The notes: generated from the sequence alone by a model not told the origin. A DNA stretch of 49,661 bases from Candidatus Brocadia sp. (GCA_011525665.1 WYAU01000064.1:1-49661), one strand, 5' to 3'. Shown: positions 18,251 through 26,695, counted from the first letter of the stretch. Translations and numbers: made by a program.

Positions 18251-19525
18251 ATGCAATTCCTTAAAGAATTAATTATTGAGAAAATAGACAAAAAGGGGAA
18301 AATTACCTTTGCAGAGTTTATGCAAGCGGTATTGTATCACCCGCAATACGGCTATTACAACTCAGACAGGGAACGCATAGGGAAATCCGGCGATTATTAC
18401 ACAGGCCCCACCGTTCACGGGATGTTTGGAAAGCTTATTGCAAAACAACTGGAAGAGATGTGGAGGGTTATGGGGAAAGGGGCGTTCACCGTTGTGGAAA
18501 TAGGGGCCAATAGAGGATGGTTGTGTTATGATATTATTCACAGTATCAAGAAAGAATATCCGGGATTTTATGCTAATTTTCATTATATTATCGTTGAAAC
18601 TAATCCCCATGCAAAAGAAAAACAAATGACACTTCTTAACTCTGTCATCTCAGCCAAATTGAATAGAGCAAGCATAAGACAGGAAACGGCAGAAAAAAGA
18701 AATTGGTTTGATTGCCCTATCACTCAACACAGCCTTGCGCCTTTCTCTAGAGAGAAAAAAGAAACATACCTCTCGCCCTTCTTGTCAGGGGAAAAAGATT
18801 TGGATGGGAAGGTATCGTGGCATAGCTGCTCAAAAGATGGATTTACTTTTGGCAGGATGCAGGGATGCTTCGTATCCAATGAATTTTTCGATGCGTTACC
18901 GGTACACCGGTTAAAGATGAAAAATAAGATTTTAAAAGAGGTATATGTGGGTTATAATACAGCCGGTTTTTACGAAACGGACGACGAGATATCCCGTCCG
19001 TCTATAACGGATTATATTGAAACCAATAGAATATATCTCAAAGAAGGGCAGGAATACGAAGTAAATTTAGGCGCTGCAAAGTGGTTAAGGCACGCCTCAG
19101 AAAAGTTAAACAAAGGATTTATCCTAACGGTTGACTACGGTGACACGGCAGAGGCGATATGCCGGGGAAACCATACCGGCGGTACTGTTAGGTGTTATTA
19201 TAAACATACTGTGAATCGGGATTATTACAAACGACTGGGTGAACAAGACATCACGACGCATGTGGATTTTACGAACTTGATGAATGCTGGAAGGTTGCTG
19301 GGATTCGATGTTACCGGTTTTACAAAACAATCCCATTTTTTAATCGCACTGGGAGTCCTGGAGAGGTTACGCGATACGAATACTGATATTGAAACACGAT
19401 TAAAAATGAAAAATCTTCTTCATCCTGAGGGGATGGGTGATATCTTCAAGGTATTAATTCAGCATAAAAATATCAAAAATTCTCAGTTGTCCGGTTTAAG
19501 GCCATTGCAATCAATAACAATATAA
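18251..19525 (+). CDS. MidA/NDUFAF7-type SAM-dependent methyltransferase
   Basis: 424 residues of the DUF185/COG1565 family. Signatures are ITFAEFMQAVLYHPQYGYY near the N-terminus, SGDYYTGPTVHGMFG, the SAM motif VVEIGANRGWL, and FVSNEFFDALPVHRL followed by LTVDYGD. The mitochondrial relative NDUFAF7 dimethylates an arginine in complex I subunit NDUFS2. Bacterial members are mostly uncharacterised, so a role in complex I maturation is only a suggestion. No clear ribosome-binding site precedes the ATG. It is followed 48 bases later by the ferritin-like gene and may share its transcript. Confidence 0.85.
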   Translation: MQFLKELIIEKIDKKGKITFAEFMQAVLYHPQYGYYNSDRERIGKSGDYYTGPTVHGMFGKLIAKQLEEMWRVMGKGAFTVVEIGANRGWLCYDIIHSIKKEYPGFYANFHYIIVETNPHAKEKQMTLLNSVISAKLNRASIRQETAEKRNWFDCPITQHSLAPFSREKKETYLSPFLSGEKDLDGKVSWHSCSKDGFTFGRMQGCFVSNEFFDALPVHRLKMKNKILKEVYVGYNTAGFYETDDEISRPSITDYIETNRIYLKEGQEYEVNLGAAKWLRHASEKLNKGFILTVDYGDTAEAICRGNHTGGTVRCYYKHTVNRDYYKRLGEQDITTHVDFTNLMNAGRLLGFDVTGFTKQSHFLIALGVLERLRDTNTDIETRLKMKNLLHPEGMGDIFKVLIQHKNIKNSQLSGLRPLQSITI

Positions 19526-19573
19526 ATTATTCAGTTCTGTGGTTAGGCTTTTACAATACGGAAGGGGGTGCGT

Positions 19574-19819
19574 ATGAAAATACAGAAGACGTCGGAACCT
19601 TGCGCCATAATGGAAGTGCTCATGGAGGCAATCAAAAGGGAGCAGGAATCGTATGATTATTACTATCGGGCATCATTACAAGCGGCAAAGCCTGCTACAC
19701 GCAGGATGTTGCTGAACCTGGCCGAATGGGAAAAAGGGCACATAGACGAGCTAACCAATCACGTATTGGAACTCAAGGCCCAGATGGAGATTGATCGGGC
19801 AATTACTGGCGGTCTGTAA
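19574..19819 (+). CDS. Small ferritin-like/rubrerythrin-type protein
   Basis: 81 residues, about half a rubrerythrin four-helix bundle. Helix 1 has MEAIKREQESYDYYYRAS and helix 2 has LNLAEWEKGHIDEL. The E...Y and E..H pattern matches the diiron-binding residues of rubrerythrin and ferritin-like domains. A two-helix unit would need to dimerise to make the metal site. I take the ATG at 19574, five bases behind AGGGGG, over the GTG at 19568. It may protect against peroxide or buffer iron; its position just before the pyruvate dehydrogenase genes may be incidental. Confidence 0.75.
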   Translation: MKIQKTSEPCAIMEVLMEAIKREQESYDYYYRASLQAAKPATRRMLLNLAEWEKGHIDELTNHVLELKAQMEIDRAITGGL

Positions 19820-19942: not shown

Positions 19943-20929
19943 ATGGATATTAAGCGTGAAGATTTACTGCGATTATATTATTACCTCAAATTGACACGAA
20001 GACTGGAAGACCGCGTCACATCTCTCTATCATCAGGGAAGGATATTGGGAGGCGCATGGACAAGCAATGGTACGGAGGCGGTTTCTGTGGGGTACGGTTA
20101 TGCCCTTGAAAAGAATGACATTGCAGCTCCGTATTTCAGAGATATGGGTGTCTTTTTAATACGGGGAATTACCGCAAAACGCATTATGGCCCAGTACATG
20201 GGTAAAAAGACCGGTGTTACCGGCGGTAAAGAGGGAAATGTCCATATCGGGGATTTGAATTTTGGTGTCTTCGGCTTTCCCAGCCATCTGGCAGATAATT
20301 ATCCGGTGGGAACGGGCGCTGCCCTTGCCTTTAAAATACGCAATGAAAAAAGGATTGTAGCGGCATGTACGGGGGACGGAGGGACGAGCCGCGGCGATTT
20401 CCATGAGGGAATGAATTTTGCTTCCGCACGAAAGCTGCCTATTGTTTTTATTTGCAATAATAACCAGTATGCCTATTCCACTCCGTTGAGACTGCAGATG
20501 GCCATTAAGGATATTGCTGAACGTGCCCTTGCTTATGCCATTCCAAGTAAGATCGTGGACGGAAATAATGTCGTTGAAGTTTATAAGGCTGCAATGGAGG
20601 CCTATGATATTGCAAGAAATGGAGGCGGTCCGTCCTTCATAGAGTGCAAGACCATGAGGATGCACGGTCATTCGGAACATGACAGCGCCCGGTATGTCCC
20701 GCGAGAACTCCTGGAGGAATGGAAGAAAAAGGATCCCATTTTAACTATGGAAAAATACTTGATGGAAAACACTATTGCCGGAAAAGAGGAATTGGACGGT
20801 ATCGATTCGCAGGTGAAAAAAGAGATTGAAGAGGCAGAGGCATTTGCAGAGGAAAGTCCTTATCCCGATTCGGAAGATTGTTTGAAGGGTGTTTATGCAA
20901 CACCGATAGAAGAGGAGCGGGGGATATGA
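19943..20929 (+). CDS. pdhA: Pyruvate (2-oxoacid) dehydrogenase E1 component, alpha subunit
   Basis: 328 residues. It binds thiamine diphosphate and decarboxylates pyruvate, passing the acetyl group to the lipoyl arm of E2. The ThDP motif GDGGTSRGDFHEGMNF ... CNNNQYA (GDG to NN) is intact. KEGNVHIGDLNFGVFG and the phosphorylation-loop region MRMHGHSEHDSARYV are also typical. I start at 19943 because AAGGTGGAG lies seven bases upstream; 19916 only adds nine basic residues. The stop overlaps the beta-subunit start as ATGA. Substrate could also be acetoin or a branched-chain oxoacid; the lipB and lipA genes next door favour a general pyruvate complex. Confidence 0.9.
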   Translation: MDIKREDLLRLYYYLKLTRRLEDRVTSLYHQGRILGGAWTSNGTEAVSVGYGYALEKNDIAAPYFRDMGVFLIRGITAKRIMAQYMGKKTGVTGGKEGNVHIGDLNFGVFGFPSHLADNYPVGTGAALAFKIRNEKRIVAACTGDGGTSRGDFHEGMNFASARKLPIVFICNNNQYAYSTPLRLQMAIKDIAERALAYAIPSKIVDGNNVVEVYKAAMEAYDIARNGGGPSFIECKTMRMHGHSEHDSARYVPRELLEEWKKKDPILTMEKYLMENTIAGKEELDGIDSQVKKEIEEAEAFAEESPYPDSEDCLKGVYATPIEEERGI

Positions 20930-21900
20930 AAGAAATTACCTATCTTGAGGCGATTAAAGAGGCAATGGATGAAGAAATGGCGCGGGACCCCGGTGTGTTC
21001 GTTCTGGGTGAAGACGTCGGGGTGTATGGCGGTGCATTCCGTGCGACAGAAGGGTTTTATGAAAAGTACGGAGAGTGGCGGGTTCTGGATACCCCGTTGT
21101 CCGAATCAGGCTTTACCGGCGCTGCCATTGGTGCTGCGCTTGTTGGTATGCGTCCCATAGTGGAGATGCAGTTTGCCGATTTTATCTCGTGTGCGTTTGA
21201 TCAGCTGGTAAATGTGGCTGCAAAGAATCATTACCGGTGGGGGGCGGCTACACCCATTGTCGTACGGGCGCCCTATGGTGGAAATATACACGGCGGGGCA
21301 TTTCATTCCCAGTGCATTGAGGGATTCTTTTTTAACGTGCCCGGACTGAAAATCATTGCGCCATCCACAGCATATGATGCCAAGGGATTACTAAAAGCTG
21401 CTATACGTGATAATGATCCCGTTATTTATTGTGAGCATAAGTATCTCTACAGACGCATTAAAGATTCCATCCCTGACGAAGATTATATCGTACCGATAGG
21501 AAAGGCACGAATTGCACGTGAAGGAAATGACGTATCGGTTATCACATACGGCGCAATGGTTCATACCGCACTTGAGACCGCACAGTTGCTGGAAGAAAAC
21601 GGAGTTTCCTGTGAAATTGTTGACCTGAGAACCATCCTCCCCCTGGATAAAAAATCAATTCTTGGTTCGGTAAAGAAGACAAGCAAGGTTGTTGTATTGC
21701 ATGAACAGACGAAAACGGGCGGCGTTGGCGCCGAGGTCTCTGCCTTACTGAGTGAATATTGTTTTGATTTTCTGGACGGACCCATTCTCCGCGTTGCCGC
21801 CCCGGATACCCCTGTACCGTACAGTGCTCAGATGGAAGAAGCCTTTATTCCGCAAACAAAAGACGTCGTCGCAGCAGTAGAGAAAGTGATGCGTTATTGA
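20926..21900 (+). CDS. pdhB: Pyruvate (2-oxoacid) dehydrogenase E1 component, beta subunit
   Basis: 324 residues, the normal length. It begins ITYLEAIKEAMDEEM and has FVLGEDVGVYGGAFRAT, DTPLSESGFTGAAIGAA, QFADFISCAFDQLVN and YCEHKYLYR. All are conserved in the E1 beta/transketolase pyrimidine domain, which contributes the glutamate that activates ThDP. The C-terminal transketolase domain contains SVITYGAMVHTALE and VVLHEQTKTGGVGAE. It starts inside the alpha-subunit stop codon (ATGA), so the two subunits are made in equal amounts. E2 follows after 16 bases carrying AAGGAGG. Confidence 0.92.
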   Translation: MKEITYLEAIKEAMDEEMARDPGVFVLGEDVGVYGGAFRATEGFYEKYGEWRVLDTPLSESGFTGAAIGAALVGMRPIVEMQFADFISCAFDQLVNVAAKNHYRWGAATPIVVRAPYGGNIHGGAFHSQCIEGFFFNVPGLKIIAPSTAYDAKGLLKAAIRDNDPVIYCEHKYLYRRIKDSIPDEDYIVPIGKARIAREGNDVSVITYGAMVHTALETAQLLEENGVSCEIVDLRTILPLDKKSILGSVKKTSKVVVLHEQTKTGGVGAEVSALLSEYCFDFLDGPILRVAAPDTPVPYSAQMEEAFIPQTKDVVAAVEKVMRY

Positions 21901-21916: not shown

Positions 21917-23176
21917 ATGCCTGTTAATGTGATTATGCCACAAATGGGTGAAAGTGTAGCGGAAGGAACCATCACCAGGTGGCTTGTGCATGAAGGGGAT
22001 AGAGTTGAAAAGGAACAACCTGTCGTTGAAATCAGCACGGACAAGATCGATACTGAGGTGCCGTCACCGGTTACCGGCATTCTGAAAAAGATTCTCTATC
22101 CGGAAGGCAATACGGTCCCTGTACAGACCGTGATTGCCCAAATTGAAACTGTTGAAGGAAAAGAGGGGGAACCTGTCTCCCCGGAAAGGCCCGGAGTTAT
22201 AAAGGAAAGAGAGACGGCAAAGGTTGTAAAGCCGGCGGAAAAATCTGAGGAGCCAGGAGAAGGAGAAAAAAAATATTCACCGCTGGTAAGGAGACTGGCT
22301 AAGGAATATGCCGTTGATTTAGAAAAACTAAAGGGCACAGGCGAAGGGGGGCGAGTTACCAAAAAGGATGTAATGGATTATGTGGCTTCACGGCAAGGTG
22401 TTACTCCTGCTCCTCCTGCGGAGGCGGAAACGAAGATTTTGGAGAAGGAAATATGTATTCCTGTAAGTCCAAAACGTAAAATTATAGCCGACAGGATGGT
22501 GCAGAGCAAGCGAACAGCTGCCCATGTAACAACGGTATTTGAGGTTGATATGACAAAGGTTGAACGGTGCCGTGAATTGAATAAGGACAGTTTAAAGAGG
22601 GAAGGTATCCATCTTACCTATCTTCCTTTTGTAACCTTTGCAACCGTTCGCGCGCTCAAAGAGCATCCCATTGTGAACGCCTCATGGACAGATGAAGGCA
22701 TTGTTCAGAAAAACTATATTAATATCGGAATTGCAGTGTCTCTTGAAGATGGGCTGATTGTTCCGGTAATAAAGGATGCAGATAAAAAAGACCTCTTGCA
22801 ATTAGCCCAGGATATCCAGGATATTGCCCTGCGAGCACGTTCAAAAAAATTAAAACCGGAAGAAGTCCAGGGGGGAACATTTACTGTAACAAATTACGGA
22901 CTCAATGGCAGCTTATTTGGGACGCCTGTAATACTGCTGCCGCAGGTGGCGATATTAGGTGTAGGAGCTGTCGTCAAAAGGCCCGTCGTTATAGATGATG
23001 CAATTGCAATCCACCCCCTGATGTATCTCAGCCTTTCTTTTGATCATCGGGTTATGGACGGTGCCGGTGCCGATGCGTTCCTTCGTAAAGTGAAAGATAT
23101 TCTGGAAGGATGGGAGGTTAAAGTCTATGAGGCGAAGAGGTCTTCTCCTCCAACTGGATACGGTGGAGTATGGTGA
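21917..23176 (+). CDS. pdhC: Dihydrolipoamide acyltransferase (E2) of the 2-oxoacid dehydrogenase complex
   Basis: 419 residues with one lipoyl domain, one subunit-binding domain and the catalytic core. The lipoylated lysine is K43 in STDKIDTEVPSP. The E3-binding domain is YSPLVRRLAKEYAVDLEKLK ... GGRVTKKDV (about 119-152). The active-site motif DHRVMDG has H377 and D381. An acidic, charged linker joins the first two domains. A full AAGGAGG precedes the ATG. The last dozen residues extend beyond the usual E2 end, and the lipB gene starts inside this 3' end. No E3 (lipoamide dehydrogenase) gene is present in the window. Confidence 0.92.
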   Translation: MPVNVIMPQMGESVAEGTITRWLVHEGDRVEKEQPVVEISTDKIDTEVPSPVTGILKKILYPEGNTVPVQTVIAQIETVEGKEGEPVSPERPGVIKERETAKVVKPAEKSEEPGEGEKKYSPLVRRLAKEYAVDLEKLKGTGEGGRVTKKDVMDYVASRQGVTPAPPAEAETKILEKEICIPVSPKRKIIADRMVQSKRTAAHVTTVFEVDMTKVERCRELNKDSLKREGIHLTYLPFVTFATVRALKEHPIVNASWTDEGIVQKNYINIGIAVSLEDGLIVPVIKDADKKDLLQLAQDIQDIALRARSKKLKPEEVQGGTFTVTNYGLNGSLFGTPVILLPQVAILGVGAVVKRPVVIDDAIAIHPLMYLSLSFDHRVMDGAGADAFLRKVKDILEGWEVKVYEAKRSSPPTGYGGVW

Positions 23177-23813
23177 GGCCTGGGAGTTTCAAAAAGCCCT
23201 GCTTGAGGCAAGGAGTTCCGGCAGGATAGAAGATTGTCTTATCCTGCTTCAGCATCCGCCGACCTTTACCTTCGGCCGCAGGTATAAAGAAACGAACCTG
23301 ATAAACAACGGGGAATATTACACGGGTAACGGTTTTGCTGTGTATAAAACTGATCGGGGTGGATTGGCTACGTATCATGGTCCGGGTCAGGTAGTGTGCT
23401 ATCCTATAATAAAAATGGACACCTATACGAAGGATTATTATAACTATCTGCGGATGCTCGAAGAAGTAATGATAAGGACGTTGTCAGACTTTGGCATTGC
23501 TGCAGAACGAAGCGAAGGATACACAGGTGTCTGGGTAAACAGGGCAAAGATCGGTTTTATTGGTGTTCGGATTGCCGTGGGCTATACAATGCACGGATTT
23601 TCTCTTAACGTGAACAACGATTTATCTCCCTTCAGTTATATTACCCCCTGCGGAATCCATGGCGTAAGGGTCACCTCTGTACAGGAACTGTTGCGGGAAG
23701 ATGTGAACATCAGGGAAGTCTATAGTAAACTGGCAAATTACTATGCCATTATATTTCAGGTAAATATGGTACCTGCTGAAATATCAGCAATGTGTAGCAA
23801 TTTAGTATTGTGA
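23127..23813 (+). CDS. lipB: Octanoyl-[acyl-carrier-protein]:protein N-octanoyltransferase
   Basis: 228 residues. It moves octanoyl from acyl carrier protein to the lipoyl lysine of E2, the first step of lipoate assembly. Visible motifs: FTFGRRYK, RGGLATYHGPGQVVCYP, then KIGFIGVRI with the general-base lysine K141, and SYITPCGI with the acyl-accepting cysteine C175. Both catalytic residues are intact. The gene overlaps the E2 reading frame by 50 bases, and its GGAGG (23113-23117) lies nine bases upstream of the ATG inside pdhC. Direct coupling to its substrate protein is therefore built into the operon. Confidence 0.93.
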   Translation: MRRRGLLLQLDTVEYGEAWEFQKALLEARSSGRIEDCLILLQHPPTFTFGRRYKETNLINNGEYYTGNGFAVYKTDRGGLATYHGPGQVVCYPIIKMDTYTKDYYNYLRMLEEVMIRTLSDFGIAAERSEGYTGVWVNRAKIGFIGVRIAVGYTMHGFSLNVNNDLSPFSYITPCGIHGVRVTSVQELLREDVNIREVYSKLANYYAIIFQVNMVPAEISAMCSNLVL

Positions 23814-23963
23814 AAAATATTCCGACTCGATAGAATCGTGGCATCATGCAGCGCGATATTTATGCCGACGTCCTGCGAACTGAAGTTCATGACACACCAA
23901 CGAAAAAAACCTGGTTTTTATTAAGATTTTTTTCAAAAACCCTGATTGTTATTATATGAATTT

Positions 23964-24803
23964 ATGGTCAAACCGGAAGACACAAATAAAAAAAACAGCC
24001 GTAATAATCTCCGTGAAGAAGGCACAAAAGAAGGTATCTTTGGCAGTATAAAGGACAAGGAAATAAATCATGTGGATTATGACCGATGGATGGGAGGTCC
24101 CCGCGGACCGGAGAAATTAACTTTTAAAGATGGGAGCGCTGTGATATTCAAGTGTGACATCCGGCATTACTGGATGGCCAATAACCCTGATACTGCAATC
24201 CGGGAGGCGATTGTTTATCAAATTGATAAAATCGTAGGGCTTGGGCTGGTGCCAAAAACAATGGTGATCGATGACACGATCGGCAGCGTACGATATGATG
24301 GTTCAGTTCAGGAGTGGATTAAAAACGCCAGAGACGGCTATCAGATAGAGAAATTTACGGATGAAGAAAGGAAAGATTTTGAACGGTTAAAGGTCTTTGA
24401 TTTTATCATTGGAAACAGCGACAGGCATCTGGGGAATATACTGTTTACCGATGACGGTAAATTGCATGCTATCGATAATAATGCATGCCTTATTATTGAT
24501 AAGGACGAGGATATTTTGTCATTCTCTGATTCGATAATAATTTTCTTTAGCAGAAACGTTATTCATGACATGCCCCATATTGTGGAATTAATAGAAAAGT
24601 TTTATAACAACAAAGACACGATATTACATTTGATAGATAAGTACATACATGATAATACAGAACGTGCCAAATTAATGGTGGAGTCGAGGATTAATTATTT
24701 GTATAACATGTTGAAAAAAGTCAAACCATTTCCCAGAAAATATCTGGAATGGAGAAAAGGATTGAATGAAGAAATGCAAAATATAATGAAACGGGAAAAA
24801 TGA
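23964..24803 (+). CDS. Protein with PI3/4-kinase/HipA/Fam20-like kinase active site, function unknown
   Basis: 279 residues. An N-terminal lobe has KLTFKDGSAVIFKCD, with a likely ATP-binding lysine, and REAIVYQIDKIVGLGLVPKT. The catalytic block is FDFIIGNSDRHLGNILF, where D153 and N158 match the D-R-x-x-x-N loop, followed by HAIDNN, where D171 would bind metal. This pattern is shared by PI3/4-kinase-like, HipA-like and Fam20C-like kinases. A phosphate acceptor cannot be named. The start is uncertain: the ATG at 23964 has no Shine-Dalgarno, and a TTG at 23946 is in frame. It sits between lipB and lipA in the same direction, with 150- and 52-base gaps. Confidence 0.7.
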   Translation: MVKPEDTNKKNSRNNLREEGTKEGIFGSIKDKEINHVDYDRWMGGPRGPEKLTFKDGSAVIFKCDIRHYWMANNPDTAIREAIVYQIDKIVGLGLVPKTMVIDDTIGSVRYDGSVQEWIKNARDGYQIEKFTDEERKDFERLKVFDFIIGNSDRHLGNILFTDDGKLHAIDNNACLIIDKDEDILSFSDSIIIFFSRNVIHDMPHIVELIEKFYNNKDTILHLIDKYIHDNTERAKLMVESRINYLYNMLKKVKPFPRKYLEWRKGLNEEMQNIMKREK

Positions 24804-24855
24804 CGCATCTTCATTGATAATTTTATTCACTGCATAAATCACAATTAAGAATTCT

Positions 24856-25707
24856 ATGCGTCCGCATTGGCTAAGGGTAAAGTTGCCGTCAGGCAGAAAT
24901 TACCATGAAATAAAAGGCTTCCTGCGAGAGAAACGGCTTCATACGGTGTGCGAGGAGGCGCTCTGCCCGAATATCGGTGAATGTTTTGAACAGAGAACCG
25001 CAACGTTTCTGATACTCGGCGAAACGTGTACCAGAAAGTGCGGATTTTGTGCGGTGAAAAAGGGAAACCCTTCCGGGGCAGAGGGAGAGGAATCCTATCG
25101 AATTGCAGAGGTTGTTAAAAGGATAGGGCTAAAATACGTTGTGATTACCTCGGTGACAAGGGATGACCTCACTGATGGCGGCGCATCGGTTTACGCTGAA
25201 ACAATCAAAAACATTCGGGAAGTTATGAAAGTTTGTAAAATAGAAGTTTTAATACCCGATCTTGGGGGAAACCCGGAGGCGTTAGATACAATAATTACCG
25301 CAGGCCCGGATGTGTTAAATCACAATATAGAAACGGTGCCGCGCCTCTATTCGCTGGTAAGGCCCGCGGCCGATTATAAGCGTTCCCTGGCATTGTTAAA
25401 GAGTGCACGGGTGAAAAACCCTTCCCTAACAACAAAATCAGGATTCATGGTAGGCCTCGGTGAGCAATGGGATGAAATAATAAGTATCATGCAGGACATA
25501 AGGAATGCCGGGTGCGATATCCTTACCCTTGGACAATATCTGAGTCCAAAGAGAAACGCCTTGCCGGTTCAGCGTTATTATACCCCGGAGGAGTTTGAAT
25601 TGTTGCAGGTAGAAGGGGAGAGGGTAGGATTTCAACACGTAGAATCTGGGCCACTGGTGAGGAGTTCCTACCATGCAAAGGCGCAATCAAGTAAGATTCT
25701 TGTATGA
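24856..25707 (+). CDS. lipA: Lipoyl synthase
   Basis: 283 residues. A radical-SAM enzyme that inserts two sulfurs into the octanoyl chain on E2. Both iron-sulfur clusters are represented: the auxiliary cluster by C32, C37 and C43 (CEEALCPNIGEC) and the SAM cluster by C58, C62 and C65 (CTRKCGFC). The C-terminal RSSYHA supplies the serine ligand of the auxiliary cluster. Also typical are VVITSVTRDDLTDGGA and LNHNIETVPRLY. Length is slightly short but no motif is missing. With lipB 1 kb upstream it completes endogenous lipoate synthesis beside the pyruvate dehydrogenase genes. No obvious ribosome-binding site precedes the ATG. Confidence 0.94.
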   Translation: MRPHWLRVKLPSGRNYHEIKGFLREKRLHTVCEEALCPNIGECFEQRTATFLILGETCTRKCGFCAVKKGNPSGAEGEESYRIAEVVKRIGLKYVVITSVTRDDLTDGGASVYAETIKNIREVMKVCKIEVLIPDLGGNPEALDTIITAGPDVLNHNIETVPRLYSLVRPAADYKRSLALLKSARVKNPSLTTKSGFMVGLGEQWDEIISIMQDIRNAGCDILTLGQYLSPKRNALPVQRYYTPEEFELLQVEGERVGFQHVESGPLVRSSYHAKAQSSKILV

Positions 25708-25777: not shown

Positions 25778-26695
25778 ATGACAACGATGAAAGACGGTGA
25801 TTTATACAGAGGCCTGCTGGATAGCCTTTCTGTCGGAATATATATTGTTGATCGGGACAGTATAATTACTTACGGTAATAGAGGCGCAGAGACACTTACG
25901 GGTTATAAGAACTCCGAGATGGTGGGCCGGTGCTGTAGAGGGAATCTTTTGATGTATGTGGACGAACAGGGGAGGGATGTCTGTGAGAAAGAGTGCATGG
26001 CTGTAGAATCAATCATTGATGGACGCCCGCGGAGTATGGAGGTGTATGCCCGGCATAAAGAGGGCTATCGGATGCCTGTGTTCGTGCGCGTGTCACCGGT
26101 CAGGAACTGCAACGGGCAGGTCATAGGCGCTGTTGAAGAACTGCATGATAATTCTTCAAAGGTCGAGTTTGTTCATAAGATTGAGGAACTTGAAAGATGC
26201 GCCTTACTTGATCCCCTCACCGGGCTGATGAAACGACGCGGTTTGGAAATGAACCTGAGGTCCGTTTGCAGTGTGATGCATAGACACGGCTGGTCATATG
26301 GGATTTTTTTTGTGGATATCGATGAATTTAAAAGAATAAATGATGTCTACGGTTATGACGTAGGGGACACCGTGTTAAAGATGGCGGCAAAGACTCTGCT
26401 GAATAGTGTGAGAGCCTCGGATATGGTTGGTCGATGGAGTGGCGAGGAATTTATGGTAATTGCTGCCAATGTTGGGGAAGATTATCTGTATAAAATTGCA
26501 AATAAGATACGTATTTTAATAGAGCAATCGGGTTTTTCCGCAGGAAATGAACGCATTTGTGTTACCGCTTCTGTTTGTGCAACTATGGTACAATCAAATG
26601 ATTCTGTGGATACCTTACTGAAAAGAATAAACCGTTTAATGGAACACTGCAGGATTTCTGGCAAGAACTGTGTGTCGGTAAAGGCGAATGCATAA
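25778..26695 (+). CDS. PAS-GGDEF protein, predicted diguanylate cyclase
   Basis: 305 residues. An N-terminal PAS domain (about 10-125: LLDSLSVGIYIVDRDSIITY, NRGAETLTGYKNSEMVGR) with a cluster of cysteines (RCCRGN, VCEKECMAV) could hold a redox-sensitive or metal site. The GGDEF domain begins DPLTGLMKRRGLE; its signature is SGEEF (S221-F225), with serine in place of the first glycine. An intact RxxD inhibitory site (R212-D215) lies five residues upstream. It has no membrane segment. It probably makes cyclic di-GMP in response to a small ligand or redox state, though the serine leaves activity open. A purine-rich run (GGAGGGGG and AAGGGG) precedes the ATG. Confidence 0.85.
   Translation: MTTMKDGDLYRGLLDSLSVGIYIVDRDSIITYGNRGAETLTGYKNSEMVGRCCRGNLLMYVDEQGRDVCEKECMAVESIIDGRPRSMEVYARHKEGYRMPVFVRVSPVRNCNGQVIGAVEELHDNSSKVEFVHKIEELERCALLDPLTGLMKRRGLEMNLRSVCSVMHRHGWSYGIFFVDIDEFKRINDVYGYDVGDTVLKMAAKTLLNSVRASDMVGRWSGEEFMVIAANVGEDYLYKIANKIRILIEQSGFSAGNERICVTASVCATMVQSNDSVDTLLKRINRLMEHCRISGKNCVSVKANA

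Follow-up and report, generated by a model that had tools for sequence, protein, structure and literature searches.

We describe here KIN, a lineage-specific core kinase gene of the Brocadiaceae, the freshwater anammox family. Its product has a PI3/PI4-kinase fold with an intact active site, the gene is under purifying selection, and in most genera it lies within a pdh-lip operon of pyruvate dehydrogenase (PDH) and lipoylation genes. KIN is the label used here for the gene at 23964-24803 (+ strand) of a window of 49,661 nucleotides from Candidatus Brocadia sp. (GCA_011525665.1 WYAU01000064.1:1-49661), the window being the whole stretch of DNA that was analysed. The likeliest single mechanism, which we put forward tentatively, would be that KIN is an operon protein kinase acting on the PDH complex or on a lipoylation enzyme.

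A kinase-fold gene between lipB and lipA

The sequence-only reading of the window had placed a kinase-like gene in line with pdhA, pdhB, pdhC, lipB and lipA. Profile matches above cut-off confirmed these neighbours, and the gaps of 150 bp (lipB-KIN) and 52 bp (KIN-lipA) given by that reading are also correct. The features of the region are as follows.

18251..19525, + strand: methyltransferase of the NDUFAF7/MidA type (PF02636), start of the block, order conserved
19568..19819, + strand: 83-aa protein without Pfam match, conserved in the block order
19946..20929, + strand: E1 alpha (PdhA; PF00676, E=6e-78)
20684..20686, + strand: S247 of E1 alpha, within the loop HGHSEHDSARY; this position is Ser in Brocadiaceae and Ala in the sister family without KIN
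20926..21900, + strand: E1 beta (PdhB; PF02779, PF02780)
21917..23176, + strand: E2 (PdhC) with lipoyl domain (PF00198, PF00364, PF02817)
23127..23813, + strand: LipB octanoyltransferase (NF010925 above cut-off), overlapping E2 by 50 bp
23964..24803, + strand: KIN, PI3/PI4-kinase-fold protein of 279 aa (PF00454, AlphaFold2 model, PI4K-II and CtkA structural matches)
24150..24152, + strand: KIN K63 in IFKCD, the lysine expected to bind ATP (invariant among anammox members and phage relatives)
24204..24206, + strand: KIN E81, expected partner of K63, nearly invariant (D in two pst paralogues)
24411..24437, + strand: KIN catalytic loop GNSDRHLGN with D153 and N158 (D153, R154, H155 and N158 invariant)
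24474..24476, + strand: KIN D171, expected metal-binding Asp (IDNN), invariant
24856..25707, + strand: LipA lipoyl synthase (TIGR00510, 380 bits)
25778..26695, + strand: PAS-GGDEF protein, with which the block ends in Brocadia, order conserved

The KIN reading frame opens with ATG at 23964 and its stop codon ends at 24803. Translation probably does not begin at the TTG at 23946, because ATG is the start in most relatives. The profile match, the anammox relatives and the low dN/dS of KIN put this gene far outside chance. No intrinsic-terminator-like site was found on the + strand in either gap around KIN, and an Rfam search returned no RNA element in the region. In most Brocadiaceae genomes, the pdh-lip block begins with the methyltransferase gene.

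Fold, active site and kinase relatives

The readable active site noted from the sequence, GNSDRHLGN with D153 and N158 followed by IDNN with D171, was correct in letters and positions (context IGNSDRHLGN; D153 codon at 24420-24422, N158 codon at 24435-24437). The accompanying assignment to the PI3/4-kinase, HipA and Fam20 kind of fold also stands, and profile and structure now narrow it to a PI4K-II/CtkA/HipT-like protein. Searched against kinase-fold profiles, as the sequence-only reading had proposed, KIN matched PF00454 above the gathering cut-off (E=1.4e-10, 42 bits against 27.1) and remained below it for HipA_C (14.4 against 30.5 bits), HipA_2 (14.1 against 27) and the Fam20C profile PF06702 (11.9 against 26.8). 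The Pfam search gave no match to the GHKL profiles of PDK/BCKDK. An AlphaFold2 model built from 28 aligned sequences (pLDDT 82, pTM 0.85) had PI4-kinase type II as its top structural match (Foldseek, VIA-align; Z 18.1, rmsd 3.6, 239 residues); matches to this kinase overall had Z values of ~18 over 238-254 residues at 18-20% identity. CtkA (Z 15.7) and HipT (Z 13.6) ranked lower, followed by Fam20, HipA and CotH (Z ~12).

Wherever they are covered, K63, D153, N158 and D171 are invariant among 30 anammox members, and K63, D153, R154, H155, N158 and D171 are invariant also in phage relatives of 22-30% identity. Loss of the catalytic D and N from most of the family, which had been raised as a possibility, is thus not what we observe, since these residues are conserved in the relatives. 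We regard the kinase fold as practically certain and, judging from the conserved residues, for which an active kinase is the parsimonious reading, KIN is very probably an active phosphotransferase.

The fold alone cannot tell a protein from a lipid substrate. In PI4K type II (PI4K2A/B), the best match, the K, E, D, N and D of the active site follow in the same order as in KIN, which differs in belonging to a bacterial operon; that the top match to the predicted structure is a lipid kinase counts against a mechanism centred on PDH. It is nevertheless rather improbable that KIN is a lipid or small-molecule kinase, acting perhaps on an anammox membrane lipid: unlike PI4K type II, KIN is without the palmitoylation cysteine cassette (its only cysteines are C64 and C175), the protein kinases CtkA, HipT and HipA match nearly as well, and no inositol-lipid gene was recognised in its neighbourhood. 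A protein is, in our estimate, the probable substrate.

Among protein kinases, Helicobacter pylori CtkA resembles KIN as a bacterial minimal kinase and is the runner-up structural match, but the two share only 16% identity, and we know of no genomic link between CtkA and PDH. The toxin kinases HipA and HipT belong to the same superfamily; unlike them, KIN has no HipB-like antitoxin gene beside it, its neighbours being lipB and lipA. In Actinobacteria, the SCO1664 family (TIGR03843), a PI3/4K-like signature protein, is linked to the mycothiol gene mshC (PMC4255298). This link parallels that of KIN with lipoate genes, although KIN falls far under the TIGR03843 equivalog cut-off (47.4 against 172.4 bits). 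The kinase domains of phage MuF/head proteins share the invariant residues of KIN but are fused to other phage proteins.

Lineage restriction, selection and insertion history

Relatives of KIN were found in 28 of 33 Brocadiaceae genomes, whose named members include Brocadia, Jettenia, Kuenenia and Loosdrechtia; the 29 further anammox members are 68-87% identical to it, and the gene is single-copy in most genomes. When 392 genomes were searched with the family profile, there was no match in other families of the order or in other Planctomycetota (~370). The genome of the window has no PF00454 gene other than KIN, and families f2-f5 have none at all. Two of the five Brocadiaceae genomes without a match have lipA at a contig edge, and another two have neither lipB nor a true lipA; in the fifth, 58% complete, lipB is present and the ~700 bp after it contain no KIN.

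The nearest relatives found outside the family comprise phage proteins that end in a kinase domain, two of which also contain a Phage_Mu_F domain, together with haloarchaeal tailed virus proteins and actinobacterial SCO1664. Scans of plasmids, phages and genome contigs returned only such distant relatives outside Brocadiaceae. In the viral contigs L136-L148, PI3/4-kinase-like domains lie at the C-terminus of long phage proteins, to which L147 and L148 add the Phage_Mu_F domain and L139 a 2'-5' RNA ligase domain. A KIN tree rooted on the phage relatives was abandoned, its branches being too long to trust.

In seven pairs, the dN/dS of KIN is 0.07-0.17; for most of these pairs, the values of LipA, LipB and E2 are similar or higher. 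Purifying selection acts on KIN as strongly as on lipA and E2. Such values are not expected of a functionless passenger, although they would also suit a gene that functions in something unrelated. It is accordingly hard to credit that KIN has lost its catalytic activity or is a selfish element inserted without relation to the operon: its place between lipB and lipA and the phage proteins among its distant relatives would suit such an element, but the catalytic residues are kept, dN/dS is low and the gene is present in 28 of the 33 genomes.

The block of methyltransferase, 83-aa protein, E1 alpha, E1 beta, E2, LipB, KIN and LipA is kept in most genera. The order lipB-KIN-lipA is complete in 17 genomes and, in two contig-edge cases, seen with one neighbour in place, together covering seven genera; in three Jettenia-type genomes (genus g6), lipB-KIN is retained and lipA has been relocated. 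The gene-order conservation that the sequence-only reading had proposed to look for is thus present. KIN lies elsewhere, away from pdh and lip genes, in Kuenenia (three genomes), in the genera g9 and g3, and in one Brocadia. The scatter that the same reading had considered, with no link to lip or pdh genes, therefore holds for these genomes and for a pst paralogue described below, and not for most genera.

In one genome of the sister family (G048), E2, lipB and lipA follow each other without KIN, lipB ending ~50 bp before lipA; g9, with KIN elsewhere, likewise has lipB next to lipA. KIN is thus an insertion into an older pdh-lip operon. Of the unrelated insertion left open by the sequence-only reading, the insertion itself is borne out by this comparison; a recent and unrelated arrival does not agree with the long retention of the gene. 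The tree of E1, E2, LipA and LipB does not separate a lip position ancestral to all Brocadiaceae from one gained after the split of Kuenenia and g9.

Several local irregularities were noted. In Kuenenia and g9, where KIN is outside the operon, a CI/S24-type repressor gene (~212 aa) lies between E1 alpha and E1 beta (insertion loci L172:3688-4615, L174:3262-4641, L175:9384-10107 and L184:3624-4636). A joint decay of PDH and KIN in Brocadia carolinensis (G007) was considered and rejected; the breaks in E1 beta, E2 and KIN are frame changes that leave all residues present and are, for this reason, probably assembly errors. In two other genomes (G029 and G030; lipA at L036 and L037), the first stretch of LipA matches the query only to residue 185, probably through a frame change by assembly error, or else by real truncation.

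Possible partners, candidate target and proposed role

Conserved gene-order blocks are common in Brocadiaceae, so synteny alone is weak evidence for a shared function, and the retention of unlinked KIN in Kuenenia, g9, g3 and one Brocadia indicates that its function is independent of linkage to pdh and lip genes. Other partners are suggested by two contexts. Two Brocadia genomes carry a second KIN copy with an intact active site (L058:8753-9625 and L059:8988-9860) in a pst phosphate-uptake operon, ordered porin O/P, PstS, KIN, two permeases and ATPase, in which it shares 4 bp with the first permease gene. In Kuenenia, 5 bp separate KIN from a calcineurin-like metallophosphoesterase gene directly upstream, MPE-A (L051:9858-10577, L054:8033-8752 and L056:9582-10301). 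These arrangements speak for a kinase that different processes can recruit.

The Kuenenia pair, together with two of the three Jettenia genomes in which KIN lies 25 bp before a second phosphoesterase gene, MPE-B, could suggest that KIN and a calcineurin-like phosphoesterase perform a reversible modification. We consider this very unlikely. MPE-B, GrpE and DnaK form a block of their own in most genera, so that the Jettenia adjacency looks like a joint made by rearrangement between this block and lipB-KIN, and in Brocadia both phosphoesterase genes are far from KIN. Kinase/phosphatase pairing was hence dropped as a general rule. Each Brocadiaceae genome checked has about three metallophosphoesterase paralogues.

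A broader alternative, to which we give just under even confidence, is that KIN is active as a protein kinase but acts on something else, for instance in general energy or phosphate signalling, and that it entered the operon by chance and stays for the use of the operon's promoter. The strong conservation of KIN where it is unlinked (Kuenenia, g9, g3), the pst paralogue, the phosphoesterase neighbour in Kuenenia and the frequency of conserved blocks in the family all agree with it. It accounts less readily for the lipB/lipA position, kept in seven genera though the genes flanking the block change, or for the gain of a serine in E1 alpha.

This gain emerged when E1 alpha, E1 beta, E2, LipB and LipA were compared between Brocadiaceae and the sister family lacking KIN. 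Fifty residues are fixed and different between the two, six of which create S, T or Y; the sole Ser among the six is E1 alpha S247, Ser in 24 of 24 Brocadiaceae and Ala in three of three sister-family genomes. The surrounding loop, written HGHSEHDSAKY in the Brocadiaceae comparison, is that of the regulatory phosphosites of mammalian PDHA1, which mitochondrial kinases target. S243, of HGHS, is also present in the sister family. Estimated only from length (six gains of S, T or Y, with ~15 of 1570 residues in the loop), a gain would fall in this loop in ~6% of sets. As a change that happened once, on a single branch, and that could be a coincidence at this ~6% level, S247 is a lead on the target of KIN, not evidence of phosphorylation. 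A literature search found no useful anammox phosphoproteome paper; a published co-fractionation resource includes Kuenenia.

We nevertheless favour, tentatively, action on PDH or lipoylation; a role in E1/E2 or lipoylation control would be consistent with these results. KIN would be catalytically active and ATP-dependent, a kinase from the superfamily of PI3/PI4-kinases, CtkA and HipA, inserted between lipB and lipA of the older operon, kept there in most genera and probably co-transcribed with the pyruvate dehydrogenase and lipoylation genes. As a soluble Ser/Thr protein kinase, it may phosphorylate the PDH complex, with Ser243/Ser247 of the E1 alpha loop as candidate sites, or a lipoylation enzyme, and pyruvate oxidation would be damped while the cell makes acetyl-CoA by CO2 fixation. 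PDH or lipoylation is the largest single option for the target, a possible one that falls clearly short of a majority, and some other substrate is at least as likely overall as PDH. The most specific form of the proposal appears unlikely, namely a bacterial PDH kinase of PI3/PI4-kinase fold that arose independently of the mitochondrial PDKs and phosphorylates the serine recently acquired in the E1 alpha loop that those kinases also target.

Even with a different target, KIN remains a core kinase particular to the freshwater anammox lineage; our literature search found no description of its function. Mitochondrial PDK and BCKDK, which would share its job if the PDH hypothesis holds, have a GHKL fold and not a PI3/4K fold. 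To our knowledge, only mitochondria are known to control pyruvate dehydrogenase covalently through a kinase of its own, and they do so with such GHKL-fold kinases. If KIN performs this task, it would represent convergent evolution with another kinase fold, and it would help to explain how autotrophic anammox bacteria may avoid burning pyruvate during CO2 fixation.
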